The notes beneath the pieces were generated by a model. It was not told where the DNA came from. It made no database searches and saw only the letters and a list, made by a program, of their open reading frames with translations. Below are positions 11,695-39,304 of a stretch of DNA of 64,000 nucleotides, piece after piece. Source of the stretch: Clostridia bacterium (GTDB lineage Bacteria; Bacillota; Clostridia; Christensenellales; Aristaeellaceae). The translations under genes were made by a program, and so were the position numbers. The stretch covers positions 1 through 64,000 of the forward strand of contig JAFWEJ010000012.1 of NCBI GenBank assembly GCA_017512985.1, given 5' to 3'. Positions within the stretch are counted from its first letter, which is position 1. Every line of letters starts with the position of its first letter.

Positions 11695-11855
11695 CGTTTG
11701 CTTCCTCCTGTATGAAGTATGATTGCGTTGCTTCCTGAACGATTTTCTTGTCGCCATGTGAAGTTATTTCTCTTTCGCTGTGCGCGCTCTGCCCGTATCT
11801 TATCATACCCGTGAATAAAAATGCAACCGAAGCGTCCCCTTCAGGATATTCATGC

Positions 11856-13401: not shown

Positions 13402-13438
13402 ATCAGCAAAACAACTGATTGTATTGTGAGGCATACAT

Positions 13439-14965: not shown

Positions 14966-15028
14966 CATTCTCCCGGGTGTGCGCCGGCACATGGTTTCTT
15001 TCACCTGATATTCATTTGGTGATTTACC

Positions 15029-15057: not shown

Positions 15058-15157
15058 TTCCTCATGAAACATAGCATGCACAATTGAAAGCATCGTGGCT
15101 CTTCCCGGCGCAGAACACAGCCGCATATCCATTCCATCCTGAAAGGAGTTTTTCTTC

Positions 15158-16477: not shown

Positions 16478-16491
16478 GAGGAGGAATAAGC

Positions 16492-19203: not shown

Positions 19204-19237
19204 CCCCATGCCGACTGAGCCCTGCATCCCGTATAAA

Positions 19238-19271
19238 AACATGCTCCCTTCCTCATGGAAGGGAGCATGTT
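19238..19271. terminator. Strong bidirectional terminator
   Basis: A perfect 15-bp stem (AACATGCTCCCTTCC with its complement) has a four-base loop and A/T runs on both sides. It separates the converging pseudo-subtilase and vWA-4 genes and marks the end of the eight-gene tubulin operon. Confidence 0.9.
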
Positions 19272-19296
19272 TTATGCCGTTATACAGGACGGAATA

Positions 19297-20631
19297 TTAC
19301 CACTCGCCGTCCGAAGAATCCGGCAGGGGATCCGTTGAGACGGCTGCCGCAGCGGGACGGGATTTGGCCTCAAATCCCGAACTCCTGTTTTTCCGCATCA
19401 GGACGACGCCCAGGAGGGTGAATGCAATGCCTTCCCGGATCCACGCAACGGGAATGATCTCCTTGCCGAAGGCCAGGACAGCAAACGCCAGGAGCGCCAT
19501 GATGGGCGAAAGGATCAGCTGGAAGCGTTTCTGCCCCTGGAGGGAAAACATCACCGTCAGCGTGATGCCGATCAGCAGGCCCAACACGGCCAGCAGGATC
19601 CCGGTCACAGCCTTTGCCGTGCCCGATTCATCAATATCCCGCAGCGCGTCCTTATAAACCGTCTCATAAACCGGAACCTTTGTAACCTCCTGCATTTTAT
19701 CCATCAGATCCGAAAGATTGTTGACATAAATGCTTTCCCCTCCGGTCCGCGAGGCCAGCAGTTCCATTTCCTTGCTGTATTCCGGTACTACATACAGATA
19801 AAACACTTTGACACCCCGATCATGCAGCCGGTCATAAAAGTCTGAAGCGCGGAATTCTCCGGTGCAATCTTGTCCGTCACTGATGATCACAATGGATAGT
19901 TCACCGTTCTCCCCGTCATATGCATTAATCATATCGCACGCGACTTCAAACGCCCTGGGGAAATGCTCATTGACGGCCGTTTCGCATCTGGCCAGTTCAA
20001 TCAATTTTTGCCGGTAATCCGGATTAAGTTCGGCGATCGGAAAAGCTCTCTCCTCAAGTGGAATCGTATAGATTGGATCATTGTTCTCAGCCCATCCCAC
20101 ATCAATCAGCATACCAACCCGGGTACTCTCGTCCATCCGATTGATCAGATCGATAACGGCTTCTGTCGCCATCTTGTCCAGCGTTCCGTCTCCCGACTCA
20201 GAAATTCCATTCATGGATCCACTCTTGTCCAGAATAATCAGCACATCGCTCCACCCGTCGTGCATGACAACCGTTTGCTCTCCCCGGGCTTCCACATTGG
20301 ACACCATGCAGAAGCAGCCCACCAGGCCGGCAGCAGCCACCGTACAGGCTGCCAGGATGAGCTGCGCTTTCCGGCTGGAGGATGGAGTCATGGAAGGAGA
20401 GATCTTCTCCTTCAGGAAAACGGCCAGCATCAGGGCAGCCACCGGAGCCGCAAAGGAAAGGAACAGCATCCAGATAGGCCTGGAAAGCACATCCTTCGTC
20501 AGGTATGCTGCCAGGAAGGATACGGCAGCTACCGCAATCAGAGCGGCAATCGACATCACGACATCCCATGAACCTGCGCTGACGCTTTTCTCCAGTTTTT
20601 TCGATTCTGCCGGATCATCCCATTCGCTCAC
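19297..20631 (-). CDS. Six-TM membrane protein with canonical-MIDAS vWA domain (paralogue 4)
   Basis: This is the 444-residue fourth paralogue and the last gene of the tubulin operon. TM helices lie near 24-46, 53-74 and 90-111. The vWA domain has a textbook DKSGS at 135-139 and ISDGQD later, then three TM helices. The loop motif is PSMTPSSSRKAQ. The N-terminus is MSEWDDPAE and the C-terminus ends DSSDGEW. The start codon is GTG at 20631 with GGGAG nine bases upstream. The 42-base gap to the preceding gene and the lack of a promoter put it in the operon. It is likely the core metal-binding sensor of the set, while paralogues 1-3 are variants under their own promoters. Confidence 0.86.
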   Translation of the reverse strand: MSEWDDPAESKKLEKSVSAGSWDVVMSIAALIAVAAVSFLAAYLTKDVLSRPIWMLFLSFAAPVAALMLAVFLKEKISPSMTPSSSRKAQLILAACTVAAAGLVGCFCMVSNVEARGEQTVVMHDGWSDVLIILDKSGSMNGISESGDGTLDKMATEAVIDLINRMDESTRVGMLIDVGWAENNDPIYTIPLEERAFPIAELNPDYRQKLIELARCETAVNEHFPRAFEVACDMINAYDGENGELSIVIISDGQDCTGEFRASDFYDRLHDRGVKVFYLYVVPEYSKEMELLASRTGGESIYVNNLSDLMDKMQEVTKVPVYETVYKDALRDIDESGTAKAVTGILLAVLGLLIGITLTVMFSLQGQKRFQLILSPIMALLAFAVLAFGKEIIPVAWIREGIAFTLLGVVLMRKNRSSGFEAKSRPAAAAVSTDPLPDSSDGEW

Positions 20632-20673
20632 GATCTTTGTCTCCCTTGCTTCGCATTATACATGGAAAACAGG

Positions 20674-23433
20674 TTATTTGCTGTTTTCAAACTGAACATA
20701 TGTATTTTCCACCCTGAAGCGGATTGTATCCCCCTTCTGGATTCTTTCCTGATTGGACTGCCTGCCGATCATGGACATCGCTTTCTTTCCGAAGGCGAGC
20801 CTGACCTCTTCATACCGGCCGGGATAAACAATGATATCCTCCAGCACTTCCGTCACGGAAGCAGACGCTTCCGGCTGCCTGGCCAGCACCATAACCGTAG
20901 CCAGGTCCACCCCCTGTTTTTCATAACGTCCCATCGGTACCGACTGGCTTTTTTCCAGCATTTCATTGCCGTGATCCGGATTGTCATCCCCGCTCATATA
21001 CGCTTTGATCCGGATGGTATCAAAGGCGGGTTTCCGTTTCTGGCGGATAATCAGCATGGCAATCAGGATCAGCAGTAATACGAAAGCGCCGATCCCGGCA
21101 TAGATCGCGATCCGGATAAAGCTGGATTTTACATTAATACTGATCTCGGCCGGAGAATCAGAATCGTTGACCCCGTCGGAGGCTGTAAGGGTCAGGATAT
21201 ACTCGCCTGTATCCCCGATCTGAATGTCTGGCAAATCTGCGTCGCCGGACAGTGTGCACTCATATGTTTCCGTTTCCACGGTTTCCCCGTTGACCGTAAT
21301 CCCGGATGTGGGACGAAGGGTCATCCGGATTTCTGTGATATCGGTTTCATCATCCTGGAAAAGGCCGAAAACAGATTGTTCCGGCATGATTTCCTGCATC
21401 AGGTTCTTTGGTGTATAACGGCCCGGGATTCCTGAAAGCTCAAATTCTCTTTTAACCGCTGTCAGTTTTTCCAGGTCTTCATATGGTTTTGTGTTCCGTA
21501 CAACGAGGCTGAGTTCCGGTCCGGATTCCCGCCACGTTACGTCTTCTGAATCCCGGATCCTCCATGCCAGTGGATAAACATCGTCCTTTTTATCAGTGCC
21601 GGCAGGAACAGTGCAGGACGCAGTTCGGGAATGATCCTCCGCTTCTTCCAAGGCAGCCGACTGTGTGTAAACGTCCTCCCCGCTGAACGCCTCCGCCTCC
21701 AGCAGCATATCCGACAGTTCCGGGAGTCCGTCCAGCTGTTTCACAGCCTCCGCCCATTGTTCCGCCGCGTCCGCAGGAATCACCGCTTTGATCCGCACTT
21801 CGGAACCAACCGCCACCTCCGGATTCTCCGGTTCATAGGTAACGGAGATAAGCTGAATCAGTTCGCTGACGTCCCGCAGTGAAACCGTGATTTCATGCGT
21901 TGCCTGGCTGTTTTCCTCCTTTCCTGTCAGTTCGATGGTGCAATCCGGCACTTCTGTCCCGGCCGCCGGCGCGCAGGTTACCTTAAAGCCTTTGGCGTCA
22001 TCAGTAACAGCCCATCCGGCTGCCTTCGCCTCTTCGTTAATCCCGGCTTTGAACACCGGGTTATCCGCAGGATTGTAGTCGAAGTATTCTCCCCATATTC
22101 CGGAAAACGACCCGTACTGATCCCGGTGGGCATAGACAACCGTTTGGGTGACTGCAGAATCCAGGGGTTTGATTTCACGGCCCCGGATGTTTTTTTCAAC
22201 TCTGTATTCTTCGTTCTCATTCCAGGACCAGGCCTGGTTACCGTCCTCCATACGGAGCGATACAACAGGGATCAGCAGTGTGCTGTTCACATTGTCACCG
22301 ATGGTGAACACGGATTTCCAGCAGCCTTCGTTTTCTTCATAACTCATGGACAGGGGCACCGCTTCCTGGCCGTTTTCCCCGTATTTAATCCTGACGATAT
22401 AGTTCCGGGGATTTCCGGTCAGCTTTGCCATTCTCAGGATGACCGTCTGATCTCCGCGTTCCCATTCCTCCGCCATCTCCAGCGTCGGCTGAATGCTTTC
22501 GAAATCCGGGTACCAGTATACCCGGAGAACCTTTCCTTTTGCCTGGATGGTATATTTCTGCGCTTTGGCCAGCGGATCCCTGGTATAGGCGCCGCCGTAA
22601 CCCAGTTTCCCATCCTTGACCTTTTCCAGCACAAAGAAATCCGTTAAACAGTAATTCCCCTGTTCATCCTTGACCGCCGGGGGAGCTGCATTCCCTGCCT
22701 GGGTCAGGATGAGCACGCGCCCGTTTTCCGGCATGGTGAATTGCTGCGTATCCGGATCAACTTCAATATCCAGCGGTGTTCCGTACAGCGACGCGGTAAA
22801 ATATGTCCCCGTATGGACGCTGCTGTTTTCGCGGTTCACTTCAATTTCGTCAGCTGTGAAATCCTGTTTCAGGATAATCCAGTCAACCGGTAAATTCCGG
22901 TATAGGGAGCCTTCTGATTCCAGGCCCGCTGTCTCCACGCCGCTGCCGATAAACACGATATGCATCCGGGTTTTTCCGCTGCTGAGGCCAGTTTTTACCT
23001 TGTCCGCTATTTCTTTGTTTTGAATAAAATCCTTCGACACGGACGCCGGCACAATAAACCACAGTTCGCAACCCGACTGGGCATGACTTTCCAGCGTGGG
23101 TTTTGCGTCTTTTCTCGGCGCGACGCTTCCGCCGTTGCCATTCTTGACATTTGCAAAAACGTTGTTTTTATCCGCGTCTTCCGTAGTGTGATAGATCGTT
23201 CTCAGATCCAGCCTTGAAATATTCAGCTGCCTGTCCGGCCACCGGGCGGCAATCGCCCGGGCGGCATACCGCGCTGAAATCAGCACCTCGTCTGCGTCCT
23301 TGGTTCCGGCAATATAGTAGATGGTTGTCACACTGCTGCCGTTATCACTGAGATTCAGATCTGCTGCCGCCACGGAAACAACCATGAACAGCAGCATAAA
23401 GATACTCAGGCAAAGCACGATCTTCCTGTTCAT
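20674..23433 (-). CDS. Large type I membrane protein of the tubulin operon
   Basis: This is a 919-residue protein with a signal peptide (hydrophobic core LCLSIFMLLFMVVSVAAA), about 770 exported residues, one TM helix near 780-800 (IAIYAGIGAFVLLLILIAML) and a ~120-residue cytoplasmic domain beginning RKPAFDTIRI. The first ~220 exported residues alternate strands and helices (IYYIAGTKDADEV, LWFIVPASV, MHIVFIGSG) like a Rossmann or vWA fold without DxSxS. Beta-sandwich domains follow. The cytoplasmic tail resembles that of the operon's first gene product in placement and strand pattern. GGAGGAAAG sets the start at 23433; an upstream ATG is unsupported. It has no acidic-Trp tail. Likely a receptor or structural partner of the vWA proteins; no named family recognised. 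Confidence 0.72.
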   Translation of the reverse strand: MNRKIVLCLSIFMLLFMVVSVAAADLNLSDNGSSVTTIYYIAGTKDADEVLISARYAARAIAARWPDRQLNISRLDLRTIYHTTEDADKNNVFANVKNGNGGSVAPRKDAKPTLESHAQSGCELWFIVPASVSKDFIQNKEIADKVKTGLSSGKTRMHIVFIGSGVETAGLESEGSLYRNLPVDWIILKQDFTADEIEVNRENSSVHTGTYFTASLYGTPLDIEVDPDTQQFTMPENGRVLILTQAGNAAPPAVKDEQGNYCLTDFFVLEKVKDGKLGYGGAYTRDPLAKAQKYTIQAKGKVLRVYWYPDFESIQPTLEMAEEWERGDQTVILRMAKLTGNPRNYIVRIKYGENGQEAVPLSMSYEENEGCWKSVFTIGDNVNSTLLIPVVSLRMEDGNQAWSWNENEEYRVEKNIRGREIKPLDSAVTQTVVYAHRDQYGSFSGIWGEYFDYNPADNPVFKAGINEEAKAAGWAVTDDAKGFKVTCAPAAGTEVPDCTIELTGKEENSQATHEITVSLRDVSELIQLISVTYEPENPEVAVGSEVRIKAVIPADAAEQWAEAVKQLDGLPELSDMLLEAEAFSGEDVYTQSAALEEAEDHSRTASCTVPAGTDKKDDVYPLAWRIRDSEDVTWRESGPELSLVVRNTKPYEDLEKLTAVKREFELSGIPGRYTPKNLMQEIMPEQSVFGLFQDDETDITEIRMTLRPTSGITVNGETVETETYECTLSGDADLPDIQIGDTGEYILTLTASDGVNDSDSPAEISINVKSSFIRIAIYAGIGAFVLLLILIAMLIIRQKRKPAFDTIRIKAYMSGDDNPDHGNEMLEKSQSVPMGRYEKQGVDLATVMVLARQPEASASVTEVLEDIIVYPGRYEEVRLAFGKKAMSMIGRQSNQERIQKGDTIRFRVENTYVQFENSK

Positions 23434-23511
23434 ATCTGTTACTTTCCTCCGTTCTTGTACGCCTGCGCGTTCCGGATAACTGGTATAGCCGCCGGACAAT
23501 GCTGGCCCGGT

Positions 23512-23970
23512 TTACCACTCATCATCCGGATCCGCGGTCAGGCCCGGCGTATGTTTGACCGGTTTGGACGCATATTCGGACAGGAAACACAAAACCGCTG
23601 CTCCGATCCCGCACAGGATACACAGCACGAGTCCGAACCCTGCCGTTGGTACGACATAGATGCCGTTGGTCGTTACTCTATTCATGCGAGCTGCAACTTC
23701 CATTCGGATCGGAAAAAAGGCAATCAGGGCAATGAGAGCCGCAGCAAGGCAGATGACAGCCGCCGGTTTTGCGGGAACAGTCATGGTACAGATTGCCGCA
23801 GCGATGCCCGTGGCCAAGATCAGGTATGCCCAGCCGCTGACAAAAAAGCAGTCAACGCCGGAATGCCCGTATCCTCCCATTTCCGCTACATAGGGCAAAA
23901 ACAAAAAGGAAATAATATACAGCAGAAAACAGCCCATTGCTCCGAGCCTGAATCCCGTTTCTCTCGACAT
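23512..23970 (-). CDS. Four-TM small membrane protein with DDEW tail
   Basis: This 152-residue protein has four hydrophobic helices (about 9-28, 45-63, 70-88 and 107-130). The cytoplasmic tail ends TADPDDEW, identical in its last four residues to vWA paralogue 2. GGAGGGAGGG precedes the start. It lies 28 bases after the GAP1-like gene and 78 before the next. I recognise no family. The tail ties it to the vWA proteins; it may be an assembly or anchoring subunit. Confidence 0.72.
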   Translation of the reverse strand: MSRETGFRLGAMGCFLLYIISFLFLPYVAEMGGYGHSGVDCFFVSGWAYLILATGIAAAICTMTVPAKPAAVICLAAALIALIAFFPIRMEVAARMNRVTTNGIYVVPTAGFGLVLCILCGIGAAVLCFLSEYASKPVKHTPGLTADPDDEW

Positions 23971-23998
23971 TGGCTTTTTTTCCCTCCCTCCGTATCTG

Positions 23999-26900
23999 TT
24001 ACATGGACGCGTTCATATCGATACGCAGGCCGTCCGCGTCAAAATCCAGCTGGTACTTTTCGCACATTTTACGGTTCTTGGCGAGGGCGGATTGATAGGC
24101 ATGGAATGAGGAATCTCCGTGAATGACCCGGACAAACTCTTCCGCCCAGGCATCTTTCAGCCCATATTCCTTCATAATCCTGATATTTTCAATCACGGAG
24201 AGCATGCGCTGCAGCACCGGCATGTTCGAAGGCGCATAAGGCTTTTTGACCGCCTGGTCCAGTTCCTGTTTGGTAAACAGTTCTCCCAGAACGCGGTTCC
24301 AGTCCGGACAGCCTTTTTCTTCGCGTCCTTCATAGGTGACCGTTTTAGGGTTATCTGTAAGTTCGGCCTGCATAATGATCGCGCAAAGCATATGGCGGAA
24401 ACTGATCTTCTGCATGTCTTCCCAGGCCGGATGCCTGTTGGCCAGTACCGAGCACAGTTTTTTCCTTACGTCGGACGCCCCTTCCAGAAGCCGGTTAAAC
24501 TCCCTGGCGGTGTTTCCGATATTGGTCACCGCGTCGCGCTCATCCATCTCCTGAAGATCCTCAAAGCTCCGGTCATACCGGTCAATCAGCCTGTAAGCCG
24601 AATCCAGGGCCGGATCCGTCTTGTTGCTGTATTTCAGGATGTCTTCCTTCAGGTTGATCAGTTTTTCAAGCGTCGGCTGGCTGTTGAACAGGGCGACTTG
24701 CTGGTGATTGATGTGTTCGCTCAGCTTTTCCTGCCAGTCTGCATAGAACTTGTTTCCCTGTGGAATTGCGTTCAGTTCCTCGATCAGGGGGGAGATTTCC
24801 GGATTCCGTTCAAAATACTCATTCAGGAAAGCCCTGGACTTGTCCATAACCTCGTCGTCACAGATATCATCCAGCTTTACTCCGGTCTTCTCCAGCTGTT
24901 CCGAAGCCTGGCTGATCATCTGGCTGTAGCCGACCCGTCTGCTGTCCATCGCCTCCATCAGCTGCTTTTTGCCCTGGGCAACCAGATAATCCTTCAGCGC
25001 GCTGTTTTTATCTTCAATCCGCGTAAAATACGGACTGAATGTATCGGCGGGAACCGTTACGTTATGCTGCAGCCAGTAATCGCAAAAGCTTTCCAGCACT
25101 TCTTCTCCGCGGGAGGTAACCGTCCCTTTCTCCATCCATTCCCGGATCACGGAAATGGAGGTCCTGTCTATTTCCGCGTTTTCCTGTTCACTGACCGCGC
25201 AAAGGAACTGCAGGTTTTCCGTATGCTGATCGCTGAGCCATTCATGATCCGTATCCTTCCATGGAGCCCTGGCGACCATATCGCAAAGCCAGTCAAAGGA
25301 TTCAATATCCTTCTTTTCCTTTGCCTCCGTCCGCCGCACAGCCAGCATATCCGTATAGGCGCGCTGTACCGTCGTGGTCAGTCCGTCCGCGTTTTCCTTC
25401 ATGGTGTTGAAAGCCAGGCCCGCGTCCGTGGGATCCATCCGTTTCCCGGCTTTGGCGGCGTCAAAGGTTTTCTTCAGGATATCCGTTGTATCAAAAGCAA
25501 CCGTCTTCCGGGAAACGCTGATCATGCCGCCGATCCATTCGATAATACCGTTGTCACCGTCCGCCATGGCCTTATCAAACTGTTCACGGATCATGGCGGT
25601 GAAGGCGGGTTTCACAATCTCATCGCCCGAAACAGCGTGGGAAAGCAGACGGTTAAACACATCTTCCACCGCGCTTCGGCTCATGCGGCCGCCGTTTTTG
25701 GCGCTGTCAAAAATCTCCTTGATGCTGTCGGAGGTGTCCACTTCAAAAGGCGCCGCTTCCGCCATACCGGCGATCCAACGGACCAGCCGGTCCCGGTCTT
25801 CCTCGTTGCCGGATGCGAGTTCTTTCCTTCTCCATTCCACGAGCATCCGGTTATAGGCGGCGATCACTTCCTGGTCGTTTTCCGCCCGCTGCCGGTCCTC
25901 CGAGAAGGTTTCAAACACAGCCTTCGCTTCTTCCGCTGTAAGCTGCTTTTCTGTCTGGTTGTTGAAAATCAGCACCATCGCGCCTCGTGGATCCTGCCCG
26001 AAGGCCTTCACCATATCCGTTTCATGGCCTTGGCGGATCGCCCGGATATTGACGCGGTAATCCCTGAAGCAGGCGCTGTAATACCGGTTCATGGCGTCGA
26101 TGCACTTTTCATCCGTCCGGTTAACTTCCCTGAAGCCGTCCTCCGCAATCCTCATCTGCCTTTCAGAAGGGAAAGCGGCGGGAGAGGTATTGTTCTGGAT
26201 GAAGTGCTCCAGCGTAACCTGTAGCAGTTCCTTCTTCGGCAGGTATTCCCGGGTAATGCCGTATAGCAGGAAATGCTTTTCGGCGTCCTGGATCTCCTCC
26301 CGCAGGAAGGCCATAAAGGTTTCGCTGGTCTCCCTGGAGTTCTGGCCAGACAGAATCCAGTCCTTGAAATGTTCATCGCGCAGCTGTTCCAGGTATTTGT
26401 TCCCGATCTTTTCGTTTCCCTTTTCAGCGTCGATCAGGGGATGAATCACCTTATGCAGCAGCGCGTCCAGCACCTTCGCGTTGCGGGCGTCTGCCTCCGG
26501 GTTCCGGAGTTGGACTTCCGGATAGCACCTCACAAACTGCGGTGCCTTCGCGGTCTGCTGGTCCCGGACAGCCAGCTCGGTCAGGATGTCCACCTGGCTG
26601 TCCTGCGCGGCATACAGTGTCTTTCTGTGGAACTCAAGCATGTCATTGCGGCGCACCATAAAAGGTTCCGCATTCTCACGGTTCATGTCTTCCAGCATGA
26701 ACTGATAGACCGCTGTTTCCAGGGGTGCCAGCAGGTCCGTGACCAGATTCCTGTGCTGGTCGTTCAGATGATGATCCTTTTCCAGATAGTTCCGGAGGCT
26801 TCTCGTCAGCAGGAAGCACGCCCTGGCATCCGTAGCCTTCTTCGCGCTGTCGTGTTCTTCCGCCAGGCCCGCTCTTTCGATAAATGCGTGTTTTTCCCTG

Positions 26901-29367: not shown

Positions 29368-29395
29368 TTTGCTCCTCGCCTCTTCATCAAGATGA

Positions 29396-31957
29396 TTATT
29401 TCCCCATATCAACCGGAATAATCTTTCCTTCGGCCATTGTCGGATCTTCCATGATCTTTCCGTCGCTGATTGTCAGCCCCCGGTAAATCCACGGTGTTTC
29501 GTCCATGGAGGGATACAGCGGATAATAGGTCAGCGTTCCGTCTGTATCTGTCGTCCGGAGTACCAGCTTCTCCACCAGTTTCTTGTTCCCCGGTCTCAGT
29601 TCCAGTCCCCTTCCGTCCAGCCTGTAGCGAACCACATCCCGGCGTCCGGGAACCTCTGCAGCGTTAATAATGATATCCCGGTTCTGGTCCCGGATCGTCA
29701 CGGTCAGCATTCCTGCGGGAATCGGCTTTCCTTCCATCACATCGGATGTCACGTTCATGTTGTTGCCGTTTCTTTTATACTGCGCCACCGGAATAACCGC
29801 AATCTTGCCCACTTTTTCCCCGTACTGGCTGATTTCAACCATTGCGGTATCATCATTTCCCTTCCAATCCCAGTACAGGCGGTAGGCATTGTTTTCGTCC
29901 GGAATCAGTTTTATTCTCTCGCATGCCGGATCTGCGGCATGTTGTATCTCTTTTTTCTCCTCGGATTCTTTTTCCTCCGGCGCGTCCTCCGGACCGAACA
30001 GGTCGTACCGGGAAGTCCGCATACGCCTTTTTGACAGATCCTGCTGACTTGCAAAATCTGAGAACAGGCTTCTGCCGGTTCCGGCCGTTCCGGAAGAGAG
30101 GTTGATAAAATAGACAGTGTTGTCCGACAGGTATTCCGTCGTCTTCATTCCTCCCAGCGGATAGAGCGTAAGGTTTTCCGCGTTGTCTGTCTTTACCTTG
30201 AAGATGTGGTCCTTATCGGTGAACCAGTGGTCCGTCAGTCTCGAGTCTGCCAGATAATAGGAGACCCCGGGGCTCTGTATGGCCTTCAGATTGTAATACA
30301 TCCTGCTGCCCATACGGAGGTATTCGTCAAAAAATTTATCACGTTCCTCCGGAGTGGAGAACTCCTTGTTCAGCACGCTGAAGAAGTCACCCCGGTACTG
30401 CGGGGGCAGCTTCGCTTCCGCGTTGTTCCCTGCCTGCCTGATATAGTCCCGCCATTCGGATTCCAGCAGGGTGCCGTCGTCCATATAAAACTGCCTGTCC
30501 ACTCCCCTGGTCAGGTCTGAAAGCGTCAGGTTCAGCTTGTTCAAAGCTTCATTGTAATCGTCATATTTTGTGCTCAGCCGGAGCATATCCCCGGACTCAT
30601 TGCTTTCCAGTTCGCTCTGGATCTCCTGTACGATCGTCAGCGCTGTTCTGGAATGGTAGCCTGTTCCGTGCGTCTTCCTCAGCCACTCCGCCAGATGGCG
30701 GTAGCACGCCGCCATGGCTTCAGCGTAGTAGCCAAGATTTTTCTCTATGATATAGTTTTCAATCGACCGGAAAATCACTTTCTTGCATTCCCGGAGATGA
30801 TCGTCTGCGCCGCCGCCGAAGCGCTGCTTCAGCGTCTTCCGCGGATAATTGCAGCCAAGGGGCATGATATCCTTCCTGGCCATCTGCTGGAACACATTCG
30901 CGATCTCGTCAAAAACGCTTTCCGAAATGCAGGCAGTCAGCGGGCTTCCACGCAGGCGTTTCCGTACGGTCGTTTCGATGCTCCATGCAAGTTCCCTTGC
31001 CTCGCTTCCGGCACTTTTTTCTCCGGTGTAGTTCAGGTCGACAAACCGCTTCATTCTCCGGAGCGCTTCGTTCTCCGGCAGGTCTGAATCCATCCGGATC
31101 GTGATCCATGCATTCCTCAGCGCGGCAGCAGTCGGCCGGGTATAGTGCTCCCGGGTATAGTTTTCCAGCCATATGCGGGCGCTCTGCGCAGAGTTCACGC
31201 CTTCCGGCCAGATATCCACAATCTGCCCGATTTCCGTGACCGAAGTAATCGGGCTGTCAAGCAGGGAAATGAGTGTATGGCAGACCTTGCTCTCCCGCAT
31301 TCTTCTCAGTTCGGATCCGTTGGCGTTGAGCGCGGAATAGCCGATGGAATACGCCGCGTCCCGCTTCAGCATCAGCTCGCCGGTCATATTCAGCAGGATT
31401 GCCAGGATCGTTGCGCTGTGCCGGTTCTCCGTCGATACCCGGCCTCCGTATTCATTTTCTTCCCCGACAAAGATCGTGCTGCCCGATGTTTCTGAAATCA
31501 GTGAAACCATGTTGTCCCGTTCGGCCGGAACATGGTTGCTGCCAACGATCAGATAAAACGTGTAGTCCGTATTCAGCACTTCCACGTCTCTGACAGCCTT
31601 GAGCGCATGCCTCAGCCAGTCATAGGAAATATCTTTTCCCGCCGAATCACAGACAATATGCAGATGAACAAATCCTGTTTCAATTTTATCCCCGATCGAA
31701 GCGTAAAAATCCCCGCCGGTCAGCGCGGCGTCGTCATAAGTGTAAAAAACAGTATTTTTGTTGTTGACCAGCCTTCTGTCCAGCTGGTCCAGCGTGCCCT
31801 TAGCCGGCGGTTCGGAGGCAATCAGGTAAAACTGGAATCCCTTCCATTGTCCGGGCAGCAGGATCTGGCACCATCGTTCCACAAGCGACGGGAACATATT
31901 GACTGCCCCGTCGCCGAAGAGAATAATGACATTGGTGTCTTTAATGCTTACATTCAT
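29396..31957 (-). CDS. Unrecognised 853-residue protein of the tubulin operon
   Basis: I do not recognise a family. The N-terminal ~180 residues look like a Rossmann/vWA-like alpha-beta domain (NVIILFGDGAV, QFYLIASEPP, LHIVCDSAGK, YTFYLIVGSNH, STIFVGEE) without a complete MIDAS or P-loop. The middle (200-560) is helical and charged. The last ~200 residues are beta-rich with YRLYWDWKGNDD and repeated VPGRRDVVRYRLDG-like strands, suggesting an Ig-like or double-psi domain. There is no signal peptide or TM. GGGAGCGGG precedes the start. It lies between the tubulin-like gene (131 bases upstream, with two hairpins in the gap) and the GTPase gene. Likely a cytoplasmic partner of the tubulin-like polymer. 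Confidence 0.6.
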   Translation of the reverse strand: MNVSIKDTNVIILFGDGAVNMFPSLVERWCQILLPGQWKGFQFYLIASEPPAKGTLDQLDRRLVNNKNTVFYTYDDAALTGGDFYASIGDKIETGFVHLHIVCDSAGKDISYDWLRHALKAVRDVEVLNTDYTFYLIVGSNHVPAERDNMVSLISETSGSTIFVGEENEYGGRVSTENRHSATILAILLNMTGELMLKRDAAYSIGYSALNANGSELRRMRESKVCHTLISLLDSPITSVTEIGQIVDIWPEGVNSAQSARIWLENYTREHYTRPTAAALRNAWITIRMDSDLPENEALRRMKRFVDLNYTGEKSAGSEARELAWSIETTVRKRLRGSPLTACISESVFDEIANVFQQMARKDIMPLGCNYPRKTLKQRFGGGADDHLRECKKVIFRSIENYIIEKNLGYYAEAMAACYRHLAEWLRKTHGTGYHSRTALTIVQEIQSELESNESGDMLRLSTKYDDYNEALNKLNLTLSDLTRGVDRQFYMDDGTLLESEWRDYIRQAGNNAEAKLPPQYRGDFFSVLNKEFSTPEERDKFFDEYLRMGSRMYYNLKAIQSPGVSYYLADSRLTDHWFTDKDHIFKVKTDNAENLTLYPLGGMKTTEYLSDNTVYFINLSSGTAGTGRSLFSDFASQQDLSKRRMRTSRYDLFGPEDAPEEKESEEKKEIQHAADPACERIKLIPDENNAYRLYWDWKGNDDTAMVEISQYGEKVGKIAVIPVAQYKRNGNNMNVTSDVMEGKPIPAGMLTVTIRDQNRDIIINAAEVPGRRDVVRYRLDGRGLELRPGNKKLVEKLVLRTTDTDGTLTYYPLYPSMDETPWIYRGLTISDGKIMEDPTMAEGKIIPVDMGK

Positions 31958-31990
31958 AGCAACCCGCTCCCGTTAACAAATAATGGAAAC

Positions 31991-32077
31991 AATCCGGCCA
32001 CCCGGAAAACCCGGCCGGATTGTGCCGTTTTTGAACAAAAGTATGCAGCATGGAGACCGCGGGGTCTCCATGCTGTA
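31991..32077 (-). promoter_or_regulatory. Two hairpins between the tubulin-like gene and the 853-residue gene
   Basis: A perfect 13-bp stem with a GCGG loop lies at 32046-32075, 14 bases after the tubulin-like stop. A 9-bp stem (AATCCGGCC with its complement) spans 31991-32021. Neither has a clean U-run on the minus strand. They may act as attenuators or as mRNA-processing or stabilising structures that set relative subunit amounts. Confidence 0.5.
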
Positions 32078-32088
32078 TAAGGTTTACA

Positions 32089-35000
32089 TCAATCCAGACC
32101 TTTTGCGATCTTCTTGTAATTCTTCACGCGCACTTCCAGAACCTTCTTCATCGCACCGGCCATATCAGCCTGCGGTTTCAGTTCGTCCGTGCGGGCAGGA
32201 TTCACATGGATCTCATGCTCCAGATTCTCCTGGTCGCCCTTCAGTTCGTCGATCAGTTCGGTCGCGGCGGTCAGGATCTCATCCATTTCATCCTTCGTCA
32301 GCGTTTCGCCGTCGATCGCGTCTTCAAACTCCCTGCGTTTCGTATTCAGCATGCGCTCCAGGTCAAATTTGGCACCGTTGTCCTTGGGCACATCCGCGAG
32401 GAAGGAGGCCGTCTTGACCAGGTCGGACTCGCAGTCCTTCAGATCGTCCGCCAGCAGCGATTCGGTAATAATATCATACTTCTGGCCCTTGTTCTTGTAC
32501 TTCAGGCCGCTGCCTCCCTGGAAGATGATATCGTTCAGGAACATGAAGAGTTCCGCCGCGGTTTCCGCATAGGCGTTGCGGACTTCCCAGGTCTTTTCTG
32601 TAACGACTCCGGAACCGATAAAGCTGCTGATCTCCTCGTAGGCCGGCAGCTGCATCTCCAGCGCGTTGACAATGTCCGGACGGCAGTAAATCATCGCTTC
32701 GGCCATGACTACGCACAACCGCTTATGATTATCTTTTGCGAGCCTGAGTTTTTCCATGTCACCCTGGAGTGCCGGATCGAAGGGATTTGTCGGTTCGTTA
32801 CCCAGGTCAAGTACGCTGGCCACATTGGAGGGGCTGATTTCCTTCTGTTCCAGAACCACGGTTTTTGCTGACTTCAGGAAATCATTCAGCCGCGAGCAGA
32901 TCTCGCTCTTGGAATAGGTGTCGCCCGTGGCGGGATTGACAGCTTCCTCAATCTCCTTTGCCTTCTGGCGCATCGCTTCAGAGGACAGCAGCGCGACGCT
33001 GTTGGCATACAGCAGGTTGACGGAGGCCTTGGTATAGGGTTCATCGTCCTGGACGTTGATCATACCGCACCGGATGCCCTTTTCCACCAGTTCATGGACC
33101 TTTTTATACTGCATAGTCTCGCTGAGGACGCTGCTCTTGGCAAACAGGAAGTAAGGCTTCGGGGACGGCAGCTGGCTCCAGTCGTTCCGGAAGTCCGCGT
33201 CGGAATTGCCGTTGCGGACCAGATGAATACCGAGGGCCGTTTCTCTGTTCAGGTCATTGTCATAGGCTTTCCGCAGCTCCTCAAACAGGCCGTAACGGAA
33301 CAGCGGGAGCTTGTCCCAGGCAGTAAGCACATAGATGTGGTCGTCCAGGGAGCTTTCCTTGGGCTGTACTGCCGGATCATGCGTTGCGAAGGCGCTCTGA
33401 ATGTACTTCAGATGCTCCGGCGCATTGGCAGGGATCGACATGTAGCAGTAAGGAGCGACCTGGGCGGATTTGAACACGGCGTCCTGCATGAACATGGGCA
33501 GCGCGCTGTCCAGGGCGCTTGTCGCCAGGTTGTCCATCCATCTCTGCTGGGCAGCCAGATCTTCGCCGACGTTCGCGATCATGATCTGGTCCAGGGACTG
33601 GTTGTTTACGTCGCCGTATACCGTCTTCAGTTCCTTCTCAATCGCCTGGCACATAGTCTGCAGGCCCACGTTGCGGCAGATAAACTCAACACCGGATGTC
33701 TTCGCGTCCACATTGGGCTGTGTCTGCTCGGCGATCTCGGCAACCTTCTCCAGGAAGCGGCTGCTCATCTTCTGCTCCGCGTTTGCTTCCTTAAAGGCTT
33801 CGTCAATGCTGTCCTGCACGGTTTCCAGGCTGTAAATATCCTGAACCAGCACAGCGTCGTCCTGGGTCTGCTTGTTGAATTCCGCTTCAAGCGACAGAAT
33901 CGCGGCGCACATCGGCTTCAGGCCGTCCCGCAGATACTCCTTGACCCGCAGGATCAGCTTCCTCAGGGATTCAACATGTTTCTCAAGGAATTCGCAGTTG
34001 TTGACATAGGTGTAGAGCGTCGCAACCGCGTGCACATACTGTTCCAGCGCGCCGGTCCTTCCCAGCACCGGAGGATTGCGGAAAGTCGGCCAGCTTGCGT
34101 TGCACTGTTCTTCGCTCTGCGCAATTGCCTGGTTCCGGGTCTTCCTGTACTGGTTTTCCCAGCTGGCCAGGATCTCGTCCATATAGCTGATCAGGCCGTT
34201 CTGTGCGTCAAGATATGCTTCCAGGGCAAAGGGGCCCTGCTCCGGATCCATGATCACGGACCGGGCAAAGTTCTCAAATCTTTCCCAGGCCTTGTTCAGG
34301 TAGGTTTCTGACGCTTTCAGGGCTGTCGGCGCGCAGACCGTGTCACGCCAGGTATGCCATTTGTTATGAGGTGCGGGATTCAGGTTCTGGACCGAAGCAA
34401 CCTTGACCTTGTCCTTAATATCAAGATTGCAGAATCCCGGCAGCTTGCTGATGTTGGTCCGGAAATCGGTCAGCAGCTGTTTTCCGTTGCCTGTGATCTC
34501 CTCGGCGCGAACCTTGCCCTGGCCGTCCGTGAACATCCTGCGGTCGGGCTGCAGTTTGCCGCTGTCGTCCCGCATCGGAATAAAGGTCTGGAACAGGAGA
34601 GCTCCTTCATAATACAGAATGGACTTCTTCGGAATCCGCTTGGTGAAAGCGCCGATCGCGCGGTATCCGTGATACAGCGGATAACTCTTCTGGATGCTGA
34701 TCGAGCCCAGGTTGTTTTCATACTGGCGGTAGGAATACTCCTGCTTTACGCCATCCTCTTTTGCCATGTAGTGCATCAGGTTTTCCGCGATTGTTCCGCG
34801 GACCGCCTGGTAACCGTCCTTGTACGGAATGCCTTCCACGTTGGAAGAAGACATGAGGATACAATGGTCAAGCGGCGGCTCTTTCCATTCGATTGTGGCG
34901 GAGTTGTTGCCGTATACCATGCGGTAAGGCACCTCGTGCTCCTTAACGCGCATCCAGAAATCCAGTTCCTTCAGAGCCGCGTACGCATTATGCTTGATCG

Positions 35001-35682
35001 GATCTTCCATGCCCGTGGCAGCGGCCACATTCATCAGGGAAACGTCAGGCATGACGATATAGCCGGTCATGGTGGCGGGAATAACGGTGGTTTCCTTTGC
35101 AGCCGCCCTCAGGATCTGGCACATGTCCAGGAAGGTACCGGATCCGGTGCCGCCGCCGATGCCCGTAACCACAACGATTTCCACATGGTTTGCCCTGGCG
35201 TCGGAGCTGCCGGCCGTGGTGGAAACGATACCCTGAATGGCTCCCTTGATAGCCTGGTTTACTTTGTCATAGTTCCGGCTCAGTGCCAGGCGGGCCGCCT
35301 GGCGGTTGGCCTGCATGCCGTTCCCGGAAATGCCGGTGGACTTAAGTTTGGTATTGACCCATTCCTTTTCATGCGGATACAGGAGCTCGTTCTGGTTGAT
35401 CAGGGTTTTCTCCAGTCCCGCATAGGAAATATCCACATATTCACTGACTTCCAGCCCTTCCGGACGTTCGGCGCGGCTGTCAAACCCGAGATATGCCGTC
35501 TTGATGGGTGCCGGAAGTTCCTGGCCTTTGGCGTCCTTGGGCAGAATGTACCGTTCCGCAAAGGTTTCCTTGATCGTCAGCAGCGAATCGCACCCCGTTC
35601 CGCCCAGGCCGACCACAAGGAGAGGTACCGGTATCTTTTCTACCCGGTCAATTGAGATTTCGAACTTCTGTTTGGTTTCCAT
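32089..35682 (-). CDS. Bacterial tubulin-like GTPase (Tubulin_2 type)
   Basis: This is a 1197-residue cytoplasmic protein of the tubulin-like group (Pfam Tubulin_2). A Rossmann start VVGLGGTGCDS lies at 23-33 and the tubulin/FtsZ signature GIGGGTGSGT at 174-183, with preceding strand VEIVVVT. It is far longer than FtsZ (~380): the GTPase half is followed by about 800 residues, largely helical, with no TM helix. AGGGAG lies seven bases before the start. The gene begins 38 bases after the large vWA gene. Known of the family: found with vWA, DO-GTPase and GAP1 genes in predicted conflict systems. Polymerisation is plausible but untested. It is the likely organising element to which the acidic tails dock; that is inference. 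Confidence 0.87.
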   Translation of the reverse strand: METKQKFEISIDRVEKIPVPLLVVGLGGTGCDSLLTIKETFAERYILPKDAKGQELPAPIKTAYLGFDSRAERPEGLEVSEYVDISYAGLEKTLINQNELLYPHEKEWVNTKLKSTGISGNGMQANRQAARLALSRNYDKVNQAIKGAIQGIVSTTAGSSDARANHVEIVVVTGIGGGTGSGTFLDMCQILRAAAKETTVIPATMTGYIVMPDVSLMNVAAATGMEDPIKHNAYAALKELDFWMRVKEHEVPYRMVYGNNSATIEWKEPPLDHCILMSSSNVEGIPYKDGYQAVRGTIAENLMHYMAKEDGVKQEYSYRQYENNLGSISIQKSYPLYHGYRAIGAFTKRIPKKSILYYEGALLFQTFIPMRDDSGKLQPDRRMFTDGQGKVRAEEITGNGKQLLTDFRTNISKLPGFCNLDIKDKVKVASVQNLNPAPHNKWHTWRDTVCAPTALKASETYLNKAWERFENFARSVIMDPEQGPFALEAYLDAQNGLISYMDEILASWENQYRKTRNQAIAQSEEQCNASWPTFRNPPVLGRTGALEQYVHAVATLYTYVNNCEFLEKHVESLRKLILRVKEYLRDGLKPMCAAILSLEAEFNKQTQDDAVLVQDIYSLETVQDSIDEAFKEANAEQKMSSRFLEKVAEIAEQTQPNVDAKTSGVEFICRNVGLQTMCQAIEKELKTVYGDVNNQSLDQIMIANVGEDLAAQQRWMDNLATSALDSALPMFMQDAVFKSAQVAPYCYMSIPANAPEHLKYIQSAFATHDPAVQPKESSLDDHIYVLTAWDKLPLFRYGLFEELRKAYDNDLNRETALGIHLVRNGNSDADFRNDWSQLPSPKPYFLFAKSSVLSETMQYKKVHELVEKGIRCGMINVQDDEPYTKASVNLLYANSVALLSSEAMRQKAKEIEEAVNPATGDTYSKSEICSRLNDFLKSAKTVVLEQKEISPSNVASVLDLGNEPTNPFDPALQGDMEKLRLAKDNHKRLCVVMAEAMIYCRPDIVNALEMQLPAYEEISSFIGSGVVTEKTWEVRNAYAETAAELFMFLNDIIFQGGSGLKYKNKGQKYDIITESLLADDLKDCESDLVKTASFLADVPKDNGAKFDLERMLNTKRREFEDAIDGETLTKDEMDEILTAATELIDELKGDQENLEHEIHVNPARTDELKPQADMAGAMKKVLEVRVKNYKKIAKGLD

Positions 35683-35720
35683 TGTCTTTCTCCCTTTCTG
35701 TTAGTATTGTGTGTTTTATG

Positions 35721-38700
35721 TCAAAAATCAAAATCGTCATTCTGGCCGGAGAAGGTATCTTCTTCCGCTGCCTGCTTTGCCTTCCGCTCCACCTTTTTGC
35801 TGCGTTTCTTGCCGGCGTTGCTCAGGTTCGCCCCGGCGCCGTCATCTGACCAGTCGTCGCTGCCGCCGAAATCGTCCAGGACGTCCTCCGGTTCATCGTC
35901 CCTGCGGTTCTCCAGCTTGATGACGATCATGCTCTCGCTGCGGTCGTTATGGATGGTCAGCTCCTGTTCGATCTTCCAGGTGTACTGCTTTTTCGCCTTC
36001 AGCCTGACGTCGTCCAGCGTCACTTCCTGCCCCGGAATGGACTTTTTGCAGACCACCCCGACGGCCAGCGTGGACCGGATGGGCTTGATAATAATATTCT
36101 GGAGCAGTTCCATGGAAATGCCGTGCTTCGCGGCCATGTCGCTGTCCACGCCCATGGCGTTGACGTTTGTGGGCGTTTTGACAGGGCTCAGCGTGTCGGT
36201 TCCGGATTCGTACAGGCTGGGCTCCTCACGGATGGTCAGGTTCAGCTGCGGGAATCTCGGCTTGCGAGCCTGGTGAACGATCAGGAACAGAATCACCAGC
36301 GCAAGGATTGCGGCCAGCACCAGGATCAGGTACGTCAGCATCTTGTTGTACAGATCCACGACCGTGATCTTCTGTTCATAAGTTCCCGGTCTCCCGTCGC
36401 CGTCCGTGGCGGTGATCCCCATTGTGCATTGGTAGCTGTATTTGAATATGGATGTCTGCTGCCCCGTGGCCTGGATCTTGTATTCCGGAGATTCCCCGTC
36501 CTTCAGAACGACTGCCGTAATGTCGGCGGGATCCACTTTTTCTCCCTCGAGAGACTTGAACTCGGGTTTGGAATAATCCAGTAGGCCTTTATCCTTATCC
36601 TTGTCTTTGAACAGATCGCTGACCTTAATCTGCACGTCAGGTGTGTCTTCCCCAAACACCGAGCGCAGGAAACCAGGCACTTTGTCGCCGCTGCAGTTAA
36701 TCGTAAGCTCTTCCGCGGGATCAGCTTCCGGATCATAATTGTTCGGAATATGGATCTCCCTGGTCAACCCGTCTCCTTCGAAAGGCCCGACCTTTACGGC
36801 CGCGGTCCATTCCGCCTCCTTGTTGCCAGTGGTGGGCACCGTAAACTCCAGCGTGTCCCCGTTCAGTTCTAACTTCGCCGTCTGGATAATCGGTTCACCG
36901 GTCGTCTTATTGACAATGGCAATCTCATTTGGCAGCAGCTTCAGCAGATCTTCATCGGCATAGCTTTCATCGTTTATATTCTTCAGCCGGACAGTAATCT
37001 TCACCTCTGAATTCTTCTTATAGGTATATTCTTCGTCCCCGAACTGCTTTCCGTCAGCGGGGTTGACAGCCACTGTGCCGGTGATTGTCATTTCCGGCTC
37101 ATATTTCGTTTGCAAGTCTTTTTCCATATCAAATACGGTCAGTTCAATCATGACTTGGCCCTGGCCGCCCGTATCTCCGTCGTCGTATTTCAGATTATAG
37201 ATAATCTTGCCGTCTTTGATCCTGTTGCCGTCCGGCTTTGTTTCGAAATGGAGGGTTCTGTCCGGATCCATCGTAATCACACCGGCCTCGTCAGATACCT
37301 CCTCCAGTTCGAAATACATGTGGGTATGGTCTTCGGGATCGTCATCTGTCACGATCTCGCCGACTTTCTTGTTCAGAACGCCGGAAGTTCCGGCCACCGT
37401 CCAGGTCTTTTCTCTTTCTTCGCCGTACGGGTTATTAACATCAATCTGTTGTTCATATTTTGTTGCAACAGGCTCATGGTTTTTCAGTTCAAAATCCACT
37501 TCCACGGTACGGATCAGGCCTGCGCCGTCTGCGGTGAATACCAGTTTGTATTTCCCGGATTTGGGCGTGTCCTGCGACAGATCGATCTCATCCCCGAACT
37601 GAAGAGGATGATCCTGCGGCGTCATGAAACCGGTCCGGATCGGTTGGGCGGCTGTCTGCCCGTCCACCACCTGATACAGCTTCCATGTTGCCTTAATCGT
37701 CATCCAGGGTTTGTAATCCGGTTCACCTGTGTGATCTGCGTACAGCGCGCTGTCGTCGGAACGGTTCCCGTCCTCGTCAGCGAAATACGCGCTTAACTGC
37801 AGCTTGTCAGACTTGTAATACGTGCTGTCCCCCCGGTCTGTGCTGAGGGCTGCGTTCAGCTTGATATTGTAGTTGTACAGGAAATTGAAGGAGATATTTT
37901 TCGGATCCTCATCGCTCTCGAACTGAAGTTTCCACATCCCGGTCGAGCCGCGCCTGAACTTGCGGATCTTGATCATGGCAAAGTTGCCATTTTCATGGTG
38001 CAGGATGGTAACCTCATCATCCCTCCCCGCAGTCTGGGAAATTCCGTCTGCGTCCAGGATCCGGATGGAAGACGCGTCGATACCGCTCAGTTTGCTGTTC
38101 TTCCCTTTTTTAACGGGAAGGATGACGTTGATTTCCCGGATGGATTCATTCAGCACGGGGATCGGAACCTCATAGGTGTTTCCCCCCAACGGATTGGGCT
38201 TGGAAATAAGCTGCACGCTGGATCCGATCTTGTCTGCCAGCACACTGGCGAAGAATGTAGGAATCTTCTTCGCGTCATCCGCTTTCTCTGCGAAAAACCA
38301 GCCTTTTCCTTCTCCTTCCACGCCTGTCCTGGCGGAGATGTCCGCCAGTGAAAGTCCGCCGCTTACAGGTTCTGTCGGATCTACTGTCAGGCCAATGGTA
38401 TAGATCGGAACATCCATGCTGCTGGCGCAGTCCGCGGCTTCCCGCGCGGTTTCGTTCATTGTCGTAACCGTGAAATCTTCTTTTTGCATTTTTTCAATTT
38501 TGCCGTTTTTCCATCTGTAGGAAGGACTGATATTAACGGAGGTCAAACCGTTTTGAAGGGCGTTCTTGCCGTCTGTCATCAGCACGATCATGGGACGGTT
38601 GCTCTTGTCGTCCCGGGTGTCCAGCATATACAGAGCTCTCATCAGCGCGGCGCCTGTATTGGTTCCATCTGCATGGGAGTTGTAAAACCTGGGCGCATAC

Positions 38701-39059
38701 AGCGTTTTCAGAAGATCGGATCTTTCTTTTCCGGTACTGACTGGGGTCAGTTCCGTGACCCCATCCAGAACGGTTCCGGCAAAAGGTACAATACCGACTC
38801 TGGAGCCGTCCATATCCAGCATGCCGACAAGCATCGCCGTCGCGTCAATTCTGAACTTGTTTATGTCGTTTCCCGGAATGTCTTTCCCGGTATTGGCGTT
38901 TTTCCCTAAAGTGGTCATGGATCCGGACATATCCAGGACAACGATTACATCGACTCCTGATGTGGCGGAATTGTCAGTTCCCGTATCGGCAGACGCCGCC
39001 CCGAGAAAACATCCCAGCAGCAAGCTGACAACCATTGCCCATATCAAGCTTCTTCTCAC
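35721..39059 (-). CDS. Large exported vWA protein with TM and acidic cytoplasmic tail
   Basis: This 1112-residue type I membrane protein is the first large gene of the operon. A signal peptide covers 1-24 and a vWA domain with a canonical MIDAS DMSGS at 43-47 follows (later LMTDGKN). About 650 residues of beta-sandwich domains come next, a TM helix near 908-930, then a ~180-residue cytoplasmic part starting ARKPRFPQL. The tail holds DDFGGSDDWSDD, a Lys/Arg-rich stretch and a terminal NDDFDF. GTG start at 39059 with GGGGG nine bases upstream. The beta domain after the TM parallels that of the 919-residue protein. Likely the principal surface adhesin or sensor, linked inside to the tubulin/GTPase machine. 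Confidence 0.85.
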   Translation of the reverse strand: MRRSLIWAMVVSLLLGCFLGAASADTGTDNSATSGVDVIVVLDMSGSMTTLGKNANTGKDIPGNDINKFRIDATAMLVGMLDMDGSRVGIVPFAGTVLDGVTELTPVSTGKERSDLLKTLYAPRFYNSHADGTNTGAALMRALYMLDTRDDKSNRPMIVLMTDGKNALQNGLTSVNISPSYRWKNGKIEKMQKEDFTVTTMNETAREAADCASSMDVPIYTIGLTVDPTEPVSGGLSLADISARTGVEGEGKGWFFAEKADDAKKIPTFFASVLADKIGSSVQLISKPNPLGGNTYEVPIPVLNESIREINVILPVKKGKNSKLSGIDASSIRILDADGISQTAGRDDEVTILHHENGNFAMIKIRKFRRGSTGMWKLQFESDEDPKNISFNFLYNYNIKLNAALSTDRGDSTYYKSDKLQLSAYFADEDGNRSDDSALYADHTGEPDYKPWMTIKATWKLYQVVDGQTAAQPIRTGFMTPQDHPLQFGDEIDLSQDTPKSGKYKLVFTADGAGLIRTVEVDFELKNHEPVATKYEQQIDVNNPYGEEREKTWTVAGTSGVLNKKVGEIVTDDDPEDHTHMYFELEEVSDEAGVITMDPDRTLHFETKPDGNRIKDGKIIYNLKYDDGDTGGQGQVMIELTVFDMEKDLQTKYEPEMTITGTVAVNPADGKQFGDEEYTYKKNSEVKITVRLKNINDESYADEDLLKLLPNEIAIVNKTTGEPIIQTAKLELNGDTLEFTVPTTGNKEAEWTAAVKVGPFEGDGLTREIHIPNNYDPEADPAEELTINCSGDKVPGFLRSVFGEDTPDVQIKVSDLFKDKDKDKGLLDYSKPEFKSLEGEKVDPADITAVVLKDGESPEYKIQATGQQTSIFKYSYQCTMGITATDGDGRPGTYEQKITVVDLYNKMLTYLILVLAAILALVILFLIVHQARKPRFPQLNLTIREEPSLYESGTDTLSPVKTPTNVNAMGVDSDMAAKHGISMELLQNIIIKPIRSTLAVGVVCKKSIPGQEVTLDDVRLKAKKQYTWKIEQELTIHNDRSESMIVIKLENRRDDEPEDVLDDFGGSDDWSDDGAGANLSNAGKKRSKKVERKAKQAAEEDTFSGQNDDFDF

Positions 39060-39110
39060 AACCGAAAACCCCCGATCATATGGAATTAATTGGCTCAGGA
39101 TACGCCCGTG

Positions 39111-39212
39111 TCACGCGCGTTCCAGCAGCGGTGCGGAAACGCTTATACATTGAAGAATCAGATTATATACAGACCAGATAAATACAGCAATCAAAAAACA
39201 CATGTTCTCCAT
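39111..39212 (-). CDS. Possible 33-residue single-TM peptide in the operon leader
   Basis: In the ~215-base leader between the operon promoter and the large vWA gene, a frame starts ATG at 39212 and ends TGA at 39111. The product begins MENMCFLIAVFIWSVYNLIL, a plausible TM helix, then a short polar end. The ribosome site is weak (GGAACATC). It may be a real small membrane protein, a leader peptide or chance. Confidence 0.35.
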   Translation of the reverse strand: MENMCFLIAVFIWSVYNLILQCISVSAPLLERA

Positions 39213-39275
39213 GATGTTCCATTTTGCTGTTCCTCTCTTCCCTGTGATTCGGTGTTCCCCCTATGGTTTTTAATG

Positions 39276-39304
39276 ATTCTATCATATTATATGCAGAATG
39301 ACAA
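39276..39304 (-). promoter_or_regulatory. Promoter of the tubulin/GTPase/vWA operon
   Basis: TTGTCA (39299-39304) and TAGAAT (39276-39281) on the minus strand have a 17-base spacer that itself contains TATAAT. The resulting transcript has an unusually long leader (~210 bases) before the first large gene. No other strong promoter is apparent down to 19297. Confidence 0.7.

Follow-up and report, generated by a model that had tools for sequence, protein, structure and literature searches.

Known tubulin, GTPase, and vWA operons

The closest described relatives of the locus considered here are the GAP1-N2 systems, which, in the passages of the paper that deal with them (Kaur et al. 2020, eLife 9:e52696, PMC7159879), consist of a zinc-ribbon GTPase, GAP1, and an FNIII component, with the GAP1 gene typically found downstream of that for the GTPase. 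The GTPase is a DO-GTPase with a conserved Walker B Glu and N-terminal zinc ribbons, and its partner is built from GAP1-N2 and GAP1-M domains. About 52% of GAP1-N2 neighborhoods add a tubulin theme, which in Firmicutes comprises two tubulins with a C-terminal coiled coil, two vWA proteins, and a polar extension of GAP1; one of the vWA proteins is a multi-TM protein with an extracellular vWA domain, and the other is fused to a YtkA domain. These passages place the systems among conflict systems. Membrane remodeling was predicted, in the excerpted part of another study, for operons that encode FtsZl1, vWA proteins, and a GTPase (Makarova and Koonin 2010, Biol Direct 5:33, PMC2875224). The literature searched, part of which was available as excerpts, yielded no experiment that tests a member of the tubulin/GTPase/vWA kind.

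The window analyzed here is a stretch of 64,000 nucleotides from the contig JAFWEJ010000012.1 of a Clostridia bacterium. An earlier note, made from the sequence alone, had proposed that it holds an undescribed system with an undescribed set of membrane partners. That reading fails because Kaur et al. and Makarova and Koonin describe such sets, a multi-TM vWA protein being included in the excerpts of the former, and the candidate was rejected in view of the Firmicutes GAP1-N2 sets with tubulins and vWA proteins. The operon is likely a strongly diverged clostridial member of the known DO-GTPase/GAP1-N2/tubulin/vWA kind. What may be new are aromatic terminal tails, here called sticker tails, a probable tubulin fold in g3 that lacks the motif, a possible cryptic vWA domain in g7, and a larger locus.

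Gene organization and transcription signals

Eight ORFs of the window's ORF list, g1 to g8, follow one another on the minus strand from 39059 to 19297, separated, when the longest start of each is taken, by 38, 131, -17, -4, 28, 12, and 42 nt; the g4 stop and g5 start form the junction TGATG. This confirms the run of eight same-strand genes with near-touching or overlapping ends described in the earlier note. The claimed terminator is also recovered, as a hairpin on the minus strand between convergent genes (about 19236..19273), with a predicted 17-pair stem that leads into a T-run. The supposedly clean promoter is not upheld, because the candidate TTGTCA-17-TAGAAT (39304..39276), which fits 10 of 12 positions, is a single match in a stretch of 600 bases for which shuffled sequences give a mean of 1.1.

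A 13-bp hairpin predicted between g2 and g3 (32046..32075, minus strand) is a possible partial terminator or processing element. There are 32 terminator-like sites in the region versus 22.5 (sd 4.6) in shuffles, with the most pairs found in the g2-g3 hairpin, and hairpins of a different sequence are predicted between g2 and g3 in two loci of relatives (L017 and L018). Because of these hairpins, the tubulin may have an expression level of its own, and one uniform transcript stays a candidate only. The single ~20-kb operon of the earlier note is borne out for the eight genes and their tight junctions, and the locus may reach 8756. Neither the Rfam scan of the window nor the tRNA/tmRNA scan gave a match.

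Two observations concern the left part of the window. A GGDEF-EAL protein is encoded at 3388-6786, adjoining the extended locus, and positions 1-719 contain no ORF of 150 aa and are, in whole or in part, 93-99% identical in the congeners G1112, G284, G179, and G097; this segment looks like a dispersed repeat.

The tubulin, GTPase, and GAP1-like core

The signature GIGGGTGSGT, already noticed in the sequence, is intact in g2 (32089..35682, minus strand; 1197 aa), a tubulin-like GTPase that matches the Pfam Tubulin_2 profile with an E-value of 7.7e-47; no other protein of the genome (89.67% complete) matches Tubulin_2. FtsZl1 presumably corresponds to Tubulin_2, and, judging from Pfam matches and gene order, the FtsZl1-type set of a tubulin-like gene with vWA and diverged GTPase genes is present.

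Loci with a recognizable GAP1-N2 domain provide a reference for the remaining core proteins. Among 199 genomes of the phylum, PF20013 (GAP1-N2) has matches in four, namely G530 and three that were compared for gene order. These three, all of the f60 family (G417, G461, and G500), have, with Pfam names assigned in G417, the order vWA, tubulin, a protein of ~800 aa, vWA, a protein of ~220 aa, GTPase, and GAP1, and the g1, g2, g8, and g4 profiles match them in place.

The second core gene, g3 (29396..31957, minus strand; 853 aa), encodes an N-terminal domain with a predicted tubulin-like fold lacking GGGTGSG, a helical middle, and a C-terminal domain modeled as beta. The N-terminal domain may adopt a tubulin fold that lacks the GTP loop, in a weak structure model in which other Rossmann folds tie with tubulin. 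A viral fold library gave no match to g3 at E 0.001 or better, with tubulin and FtsZ at E about 0.02, and there was no informative Pfam or NCBIfam match. The operon of the window counts one Tubulin_2 gene and, by weak fold match alone, a second tubulin in g3; in G221, two Tubulin_2 genes accompany g3. Comparison of the g3 profile with the ~800-aa f60 protein was non-significant (P 0.036 local, 0.45 global), and the identity of those two proteins is therefore left unclaimed. Against the ~220-aa protein of the f60 loci, the g3 C-terminal domain gave P 5e-4 in local and 0.008 in global comparison; that protein has no Pfam match and is, in our reading, a putative FNIII component.

The G1, G3, and G4 motifs attributed to a second GTPase are found in g4 (27907..29412, minus strand) as GGRAAGKT, DIAGE, and TKVD. 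The protein, whose true start is perhaps the internal Met16, matches DO-GTPase2 in Pfam with E 2.5e-4 and 21.2 bits, under the cut-off of 27, and has an acidic, F-rich linker. It fits a DO-GTPase with a Walker B Glu (in DIAGE) and two CxxC motifs, which would form zinc ribbons.

Consistent with a GAP1-type gene directly downstream of the GTPase, g5 (23999..27910, minus strand; 1303 aa) starts at the g4 stop, and a g5-type gene follows a g4-type gene in 10 of 11 genomes, the eleventh having a 7.7-kb contig on which no g4 was called. None of four g5 homologues has a GAP1 match in Pfam, and g5 itself gave a stray Pfam match at E 0.012 and no informative Pfam or NCBIfam match. The likeness to GAP1 comes from profile-profile comparison. 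A profile of the N-terminal 500 residues of 11 g5 sequences was set against six GAP1 proteins, of which four are PF20013-positive, another has a GAP1-M match that narrowly misses the cut-off, and the last is a close homologue. With an in-order alignment, P was 4.4e-4 in local and 2.1e-6 in global mode, versus P 0.07 or worse local and 0.16 or worse global for 11 null profiles made from other proteins of the locus. For profiles of the full length, P was 0.0033 in local and 0.46 in global mode. With hhalign, comparisons of 3-4 sequences per side were negative, and four g5 sequences likewise gave no match to four GAP1 proteins or to intermediates taken singly; P reached 0.008 once four intermediates were included. 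The comparison of N-terminal halves supports the assignment of g5 as a putative GAP1-like partner. A sequence search of solved structures with g2, g4, and g5 gave a best E no better than 0.29. The family guesses of the earlier note are supported by the Tubulin_2 match, by a DO-GTPase2 match below cut-off, and by the profile likeness of g5 to GAP1, for which Pfam gave no match. PADLOC recognized none of 10 proteins, three of which came from a canonical operon.

Membrane proteins and the neighboring cluster

Pfam identifies two vWA proteins in the operon, g1 and g8, of which one is multi-TM, with TM segments taken from hydropathy. The canonical MIDAS of the earlier note is present in g1 (35721..39059, minus strand; 1112 aa) as DMSGS, with a VWA_2 match of E 5.2e-09; the protein has a signal-like N-terminus, a predicted TM at about 910-928, and a tail ending in NDDFDF, and YtkA is absent among its Pfam matches up to E 0.05. 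The last gene, g8 (19297..20631, minus strand; VWA E 2.1e-06), has DKSGS, six predicted TM segments, an N-terminal SEWDD, and a C-terminal DGEW, and its vWA domain would, in our reading, lie on the extracellular side. Neither of the other two membrane proteins has a Pfam match: g6 (23512..23970, minus strand; 152 aa) has four predicted TM segments and ends in DDEW, and g7 (20674..23499, minus strand; 941 aa), which perhaps starts at Met23, has a TM at about 799-817. Structure prediction suggests that the N-terminus of g7 may be a cryptic vWA-like fold without DxSxS. In G254, the homologue of g7 has a 55-aa match to g1 (38% identity, E 3.9e-7), and by eye g1 and g7 have a TM-proximal cytoplasmic region in common.

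Convergent with the end of the operon is a 909-aa protein (16474..19203, plus strand) with a DSGFDSFDS-type N-terminal tail, one predicted TM, and a CarboxypepD_reg match (E 2.7e-13). It is preceded by vWA439 (15158..16477, plus strand), a multi-TM g8 paralogue by Pfam and alignment, with DPTYS and stickers at both ends, one of them DDWDQ, and by a transglutaminase-fold protein (13439..14965, plus strand; Transglut_core E 7.1e-08), which has one predicted TM, an N-terminal DDWDE/DDDDW tail, and, by eye, candidate Cys, His, and Asp residues. Further multi-TM vWA paralogues are vWA424 (11958..13232, minus strand; VWA 23.0 bits, cut-off 23.8), in which the MIDAS is lost (DYEEE) and the C-terminus is DDEW, and vWA474 (8756..10180, minus strand; VWA E 1.7e-11), which has DKSSS, an N-terminal MDEWNDD, and a C-terminal GDLW. 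These three vWA genes (8756, 11958, and 15158) share about 28-34% identity with g8 and with one another; six TM segments are predicted in g8 and vWA474, and five at threshold in vWA424 and vWA439. Between two of the vWA genes lies a 436-aa protein of uncertain membership (10447..11757, minus strand), without predicted TM or stickers. It is helical and repeat-like by eye, and as speculation it is a possible tail-binding hub. Because F/W motifs also occur in genes at 8756-19203, a locus of ~30 kb is suggested, and it may extend to 8756.

Distribution

Four genomes were used to build a g5 profile, which finds matches in 11 of the 300 genomes of the family, the four source genomes among them. The order g1-g2-g3-g4-g5 is found in nine of the 11, some with an extra gene, and in five of the seven that lie outside profile building; this comparison across related genomes supports the view, held in the earlier note, of a single system. 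Among the variants, G254 has a g8-type vWA gene between g1 and g2, G221 and G1200 have two tubulins each, G966 has g5 split between contigs, G1051 has an unclassified 782-aa ORF in the g3 slot, and G1120 has g5 and g7 on a contig of 7.7 kb. Tubulin_2 is found in 12 of 396 genomes of the order, nine of them over cut-off, and a scan of genome contigs found two relatives. A single-sequence search with g5 in 151 genomes of the order returned the window's own copy alone, though G254 and G221 exist; absence counts from single-sequence searches are therefore lower bounds.

In the congeners G284 and G382, the right flank (44410-51434) is conserved at 78-89% identity and a CotH gene is kept, but around these flanks no operon gene turned up over 40 kb in G284 and 37 kb in G382. 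The locus looks accessory. A DUF87/HerA-type ATPase is encoded in tubulin-vWA operons of G367 (L028 7778-10492) and G839 (L059 2351-5116), in which none of the scanned ORFs has a Pfam GAP1 match; judging from their genes, these are a different variant of the tubulin-vWA theme.

Aromatic terminal tails

The terminal F/W motifs of g1, g6, g8, vWA424, vWA474, vWA439, the 909-aa protein, and the transglutaminase-fold protein have a counterpart in the g4 linker, which contains SFDDAFDSDDFDD. Predicted TM counts suit cytoplasmic F/W ends, with the orientation being our reading. The rule that defines a sticker was made on the window after looking and applied unchanged to relatives, and in both tests the background ORFs are mechanical calls that may include non-genes. 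At least one terminal motif occurs in 8 of 14 locus proteins of the window versus 28 of 184 other ORFs (162 from other genome stretches and 22 from the window; Fisher 8e-4), and at least two occur in 5 of 14 versus 3 of 184 (Fisher 4e-5). In nine relatives, at least two motifs are found in 14 of 23 membrane components, versus 1 of 25 core proteins (g2, g3, and g5; Fisher 2e-5) and 3 of 66 flanking ORFs (Fisher 5e-8), among which g4 ORFs may sit, and at least one in 17 of 23, 4 of 25, and 9 of 66, respectively. G1120, all g4 GTPases, and the f60 loci are outside the membrane and core sets. Because sticker proteins are related to each other, all of these Fisher values are indicative.

The motifs are not universal. 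By the rule, terminal stickers are absent from g7 of the window, from g7 in three of four genomes, and from g1 of G1003 and G1051, and they are absent in the two f60 vWA1 proteins inspected; the transglutaminase-fold protein of G254 has none by rule, with IDEWDD and NEDWGF present by eye. Where tails occur, the aromatics are kept in relatives while spacers shift from acidic to Gly/Asn/Ser, 4 of 10 g1 tails have at most 3 I/L/V/M within the last 70 residues, and an aromatic near the N-terminus is aligned in all six vWA proteins compared, which are about 26-34% identical. The g1 tails of G221, G1146, G1162, and G1200 are FG-repeat-like. In G367, a genome from another family of the same order, the multi-TM vWA protein (L028 11893-13482) has an FG repeat tail of the GAFGGN type at its end. 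In the text of PMC7159879 that was available, the terms low complexity, linear motif, and phase separation are absent and aromatic occurs just for MoxR motifs and in references, and no literature on such tails in vWA systems is among the matches listed. The chances that the tails are a shared interaction device appear about even.

Mechanism and alternative explanations

The best explanation, and one that is probable to a moderate degree, is that the operon is a diverged DO-GTPase/GAP1-N2/tubulin/vWA member that works as a membrane-bound sensing-and-switch machine. The vWA and other ectodomains would sense an envelope or surface event, and the cytoplasmic F/W tails, echoed in the g4 linker, would gather the sensors together and bring in the soluble core. 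The nucleotide switch of g4, acting with g5, would then license g2 and g3 to assemble beneath the membrane, and this assembly could reorganize membrane or surface. The full chain, from sensing through the tails and the g4/g5 switch to tubulin assembly, is a tentative and rather doubtful proposal, and the outcome could be either immunity, as in Kaur et al., or remodeling, as in Makarova and Koonin. Equally speculative is an FG-nucleoporin-like device, in which Phe/Trp tails would form a membrane-bound condensate and recruitment of the tubulin and its motif-less partner would be gated by the GTPase-GAP1 switch.

It is quite possible, if not favored, that the locus is an envelope or surface remodeling machine instead of a conflict system, in which surface structures would be built or cross-linked by vWA and transglutaminase-fold membrane proteins that are placed by tubulin filaments. 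This would agree with the membrane remodeling proposed in the excerpts of PMC2875224, with the presence of the same tails on the neighboring transglutaminase-fold and CarboxypepD_reg proteins, with the transglutaminase-fold homologue that flanks the operon in G254 as well, and with Pfam and PADLOC scans that recognized no effector. However, the patchy presence (11/300) and the absence around the G284 and G382 flanks suit an accessory function, and the kind is counted among conflict systems in the passages of PMC7159879.

A further alternative holds that low-complexity tails contain the F/W motifs by chance of composition, with no shared function. The rule postdates inspection of the window, tails of homologues are not independent of each other, and some tails of relatives are simple repeats, but the explanation is unlikely, as the fixed rule splits membrane from core and flanking proteins of relatives, aromatics persist while spacers change and aliphatic residues stay scarce in 4/10 g1 tails, and the motifs are common to unrelated proteins of one locus. 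Least convincing is a reading in which the eight-gene operon is one unit and the adjacent vWA/transglutaminase cluster (8756-19203) another, separate one, because, despite convergent strands and no 436-aa or 909-aa homologue called in the relatives' loci scanned, the cluster's three vWA genes are g8 paralogues, G254 has an adjacent transglutaminase-fold gene, and terminal motifs are common to both clusters.

If the tails work as proposed for the sensing-and-switch machine, they are a short, mutable handle, common to many partners, on the coupling of sensor to tubulin, and a signature by which more members could be recognized in sequence. The pairing of a motif-less tubulin with a GTP-loop tubulin would, if true, also be informative.

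Comparison with known systems

The tails resemble those of FG nucleoporins, as far as the consulted excerpts describe them, in their repeated Phe within Gly/Ser/Asn-rich sequence, most clearly in g1 of G1200, G1146, G1162, and G221. Unlike these, the tails of the window are acidic (DDEW/DDFDF), and the likeness is one of composition only, with no homology claimed. With the FtsZl1 operons, in the passages of PMC2875224 that treat them, the locus shares an FtsZ/tubulin-like protein, vWA proteins, and a diverged P-loop GTPase; kinases are frequent components there and several of the genomes have OmpA-family proteins, whereas no such Pfam match is found in the window operon, and GAP1 is unnamed in those passages. 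The likeness to the GAP1-N2 systems, as set out in the excerpts of PMC7159879, extends to a DO-GTPase with the Walker B Glu and zinc-ribbon motifs, a GAP1-like gene directly downstream, a tubulin, vWA proteins including a multi-TM one, and a patchy distribution. The window differs in that its g5 GAP1 and g3 lie beyond the reach of Pfam, one Pfam-recognizable tubulin is joined by one that is predicted and motif-less, and YtkA and FNIII have no Pfam match while a cryptic vWA domain is predicted in g7. It differs, finally, in its F/W sticker tails and in the transglutaminase-fold and extra vWA genes nearby.
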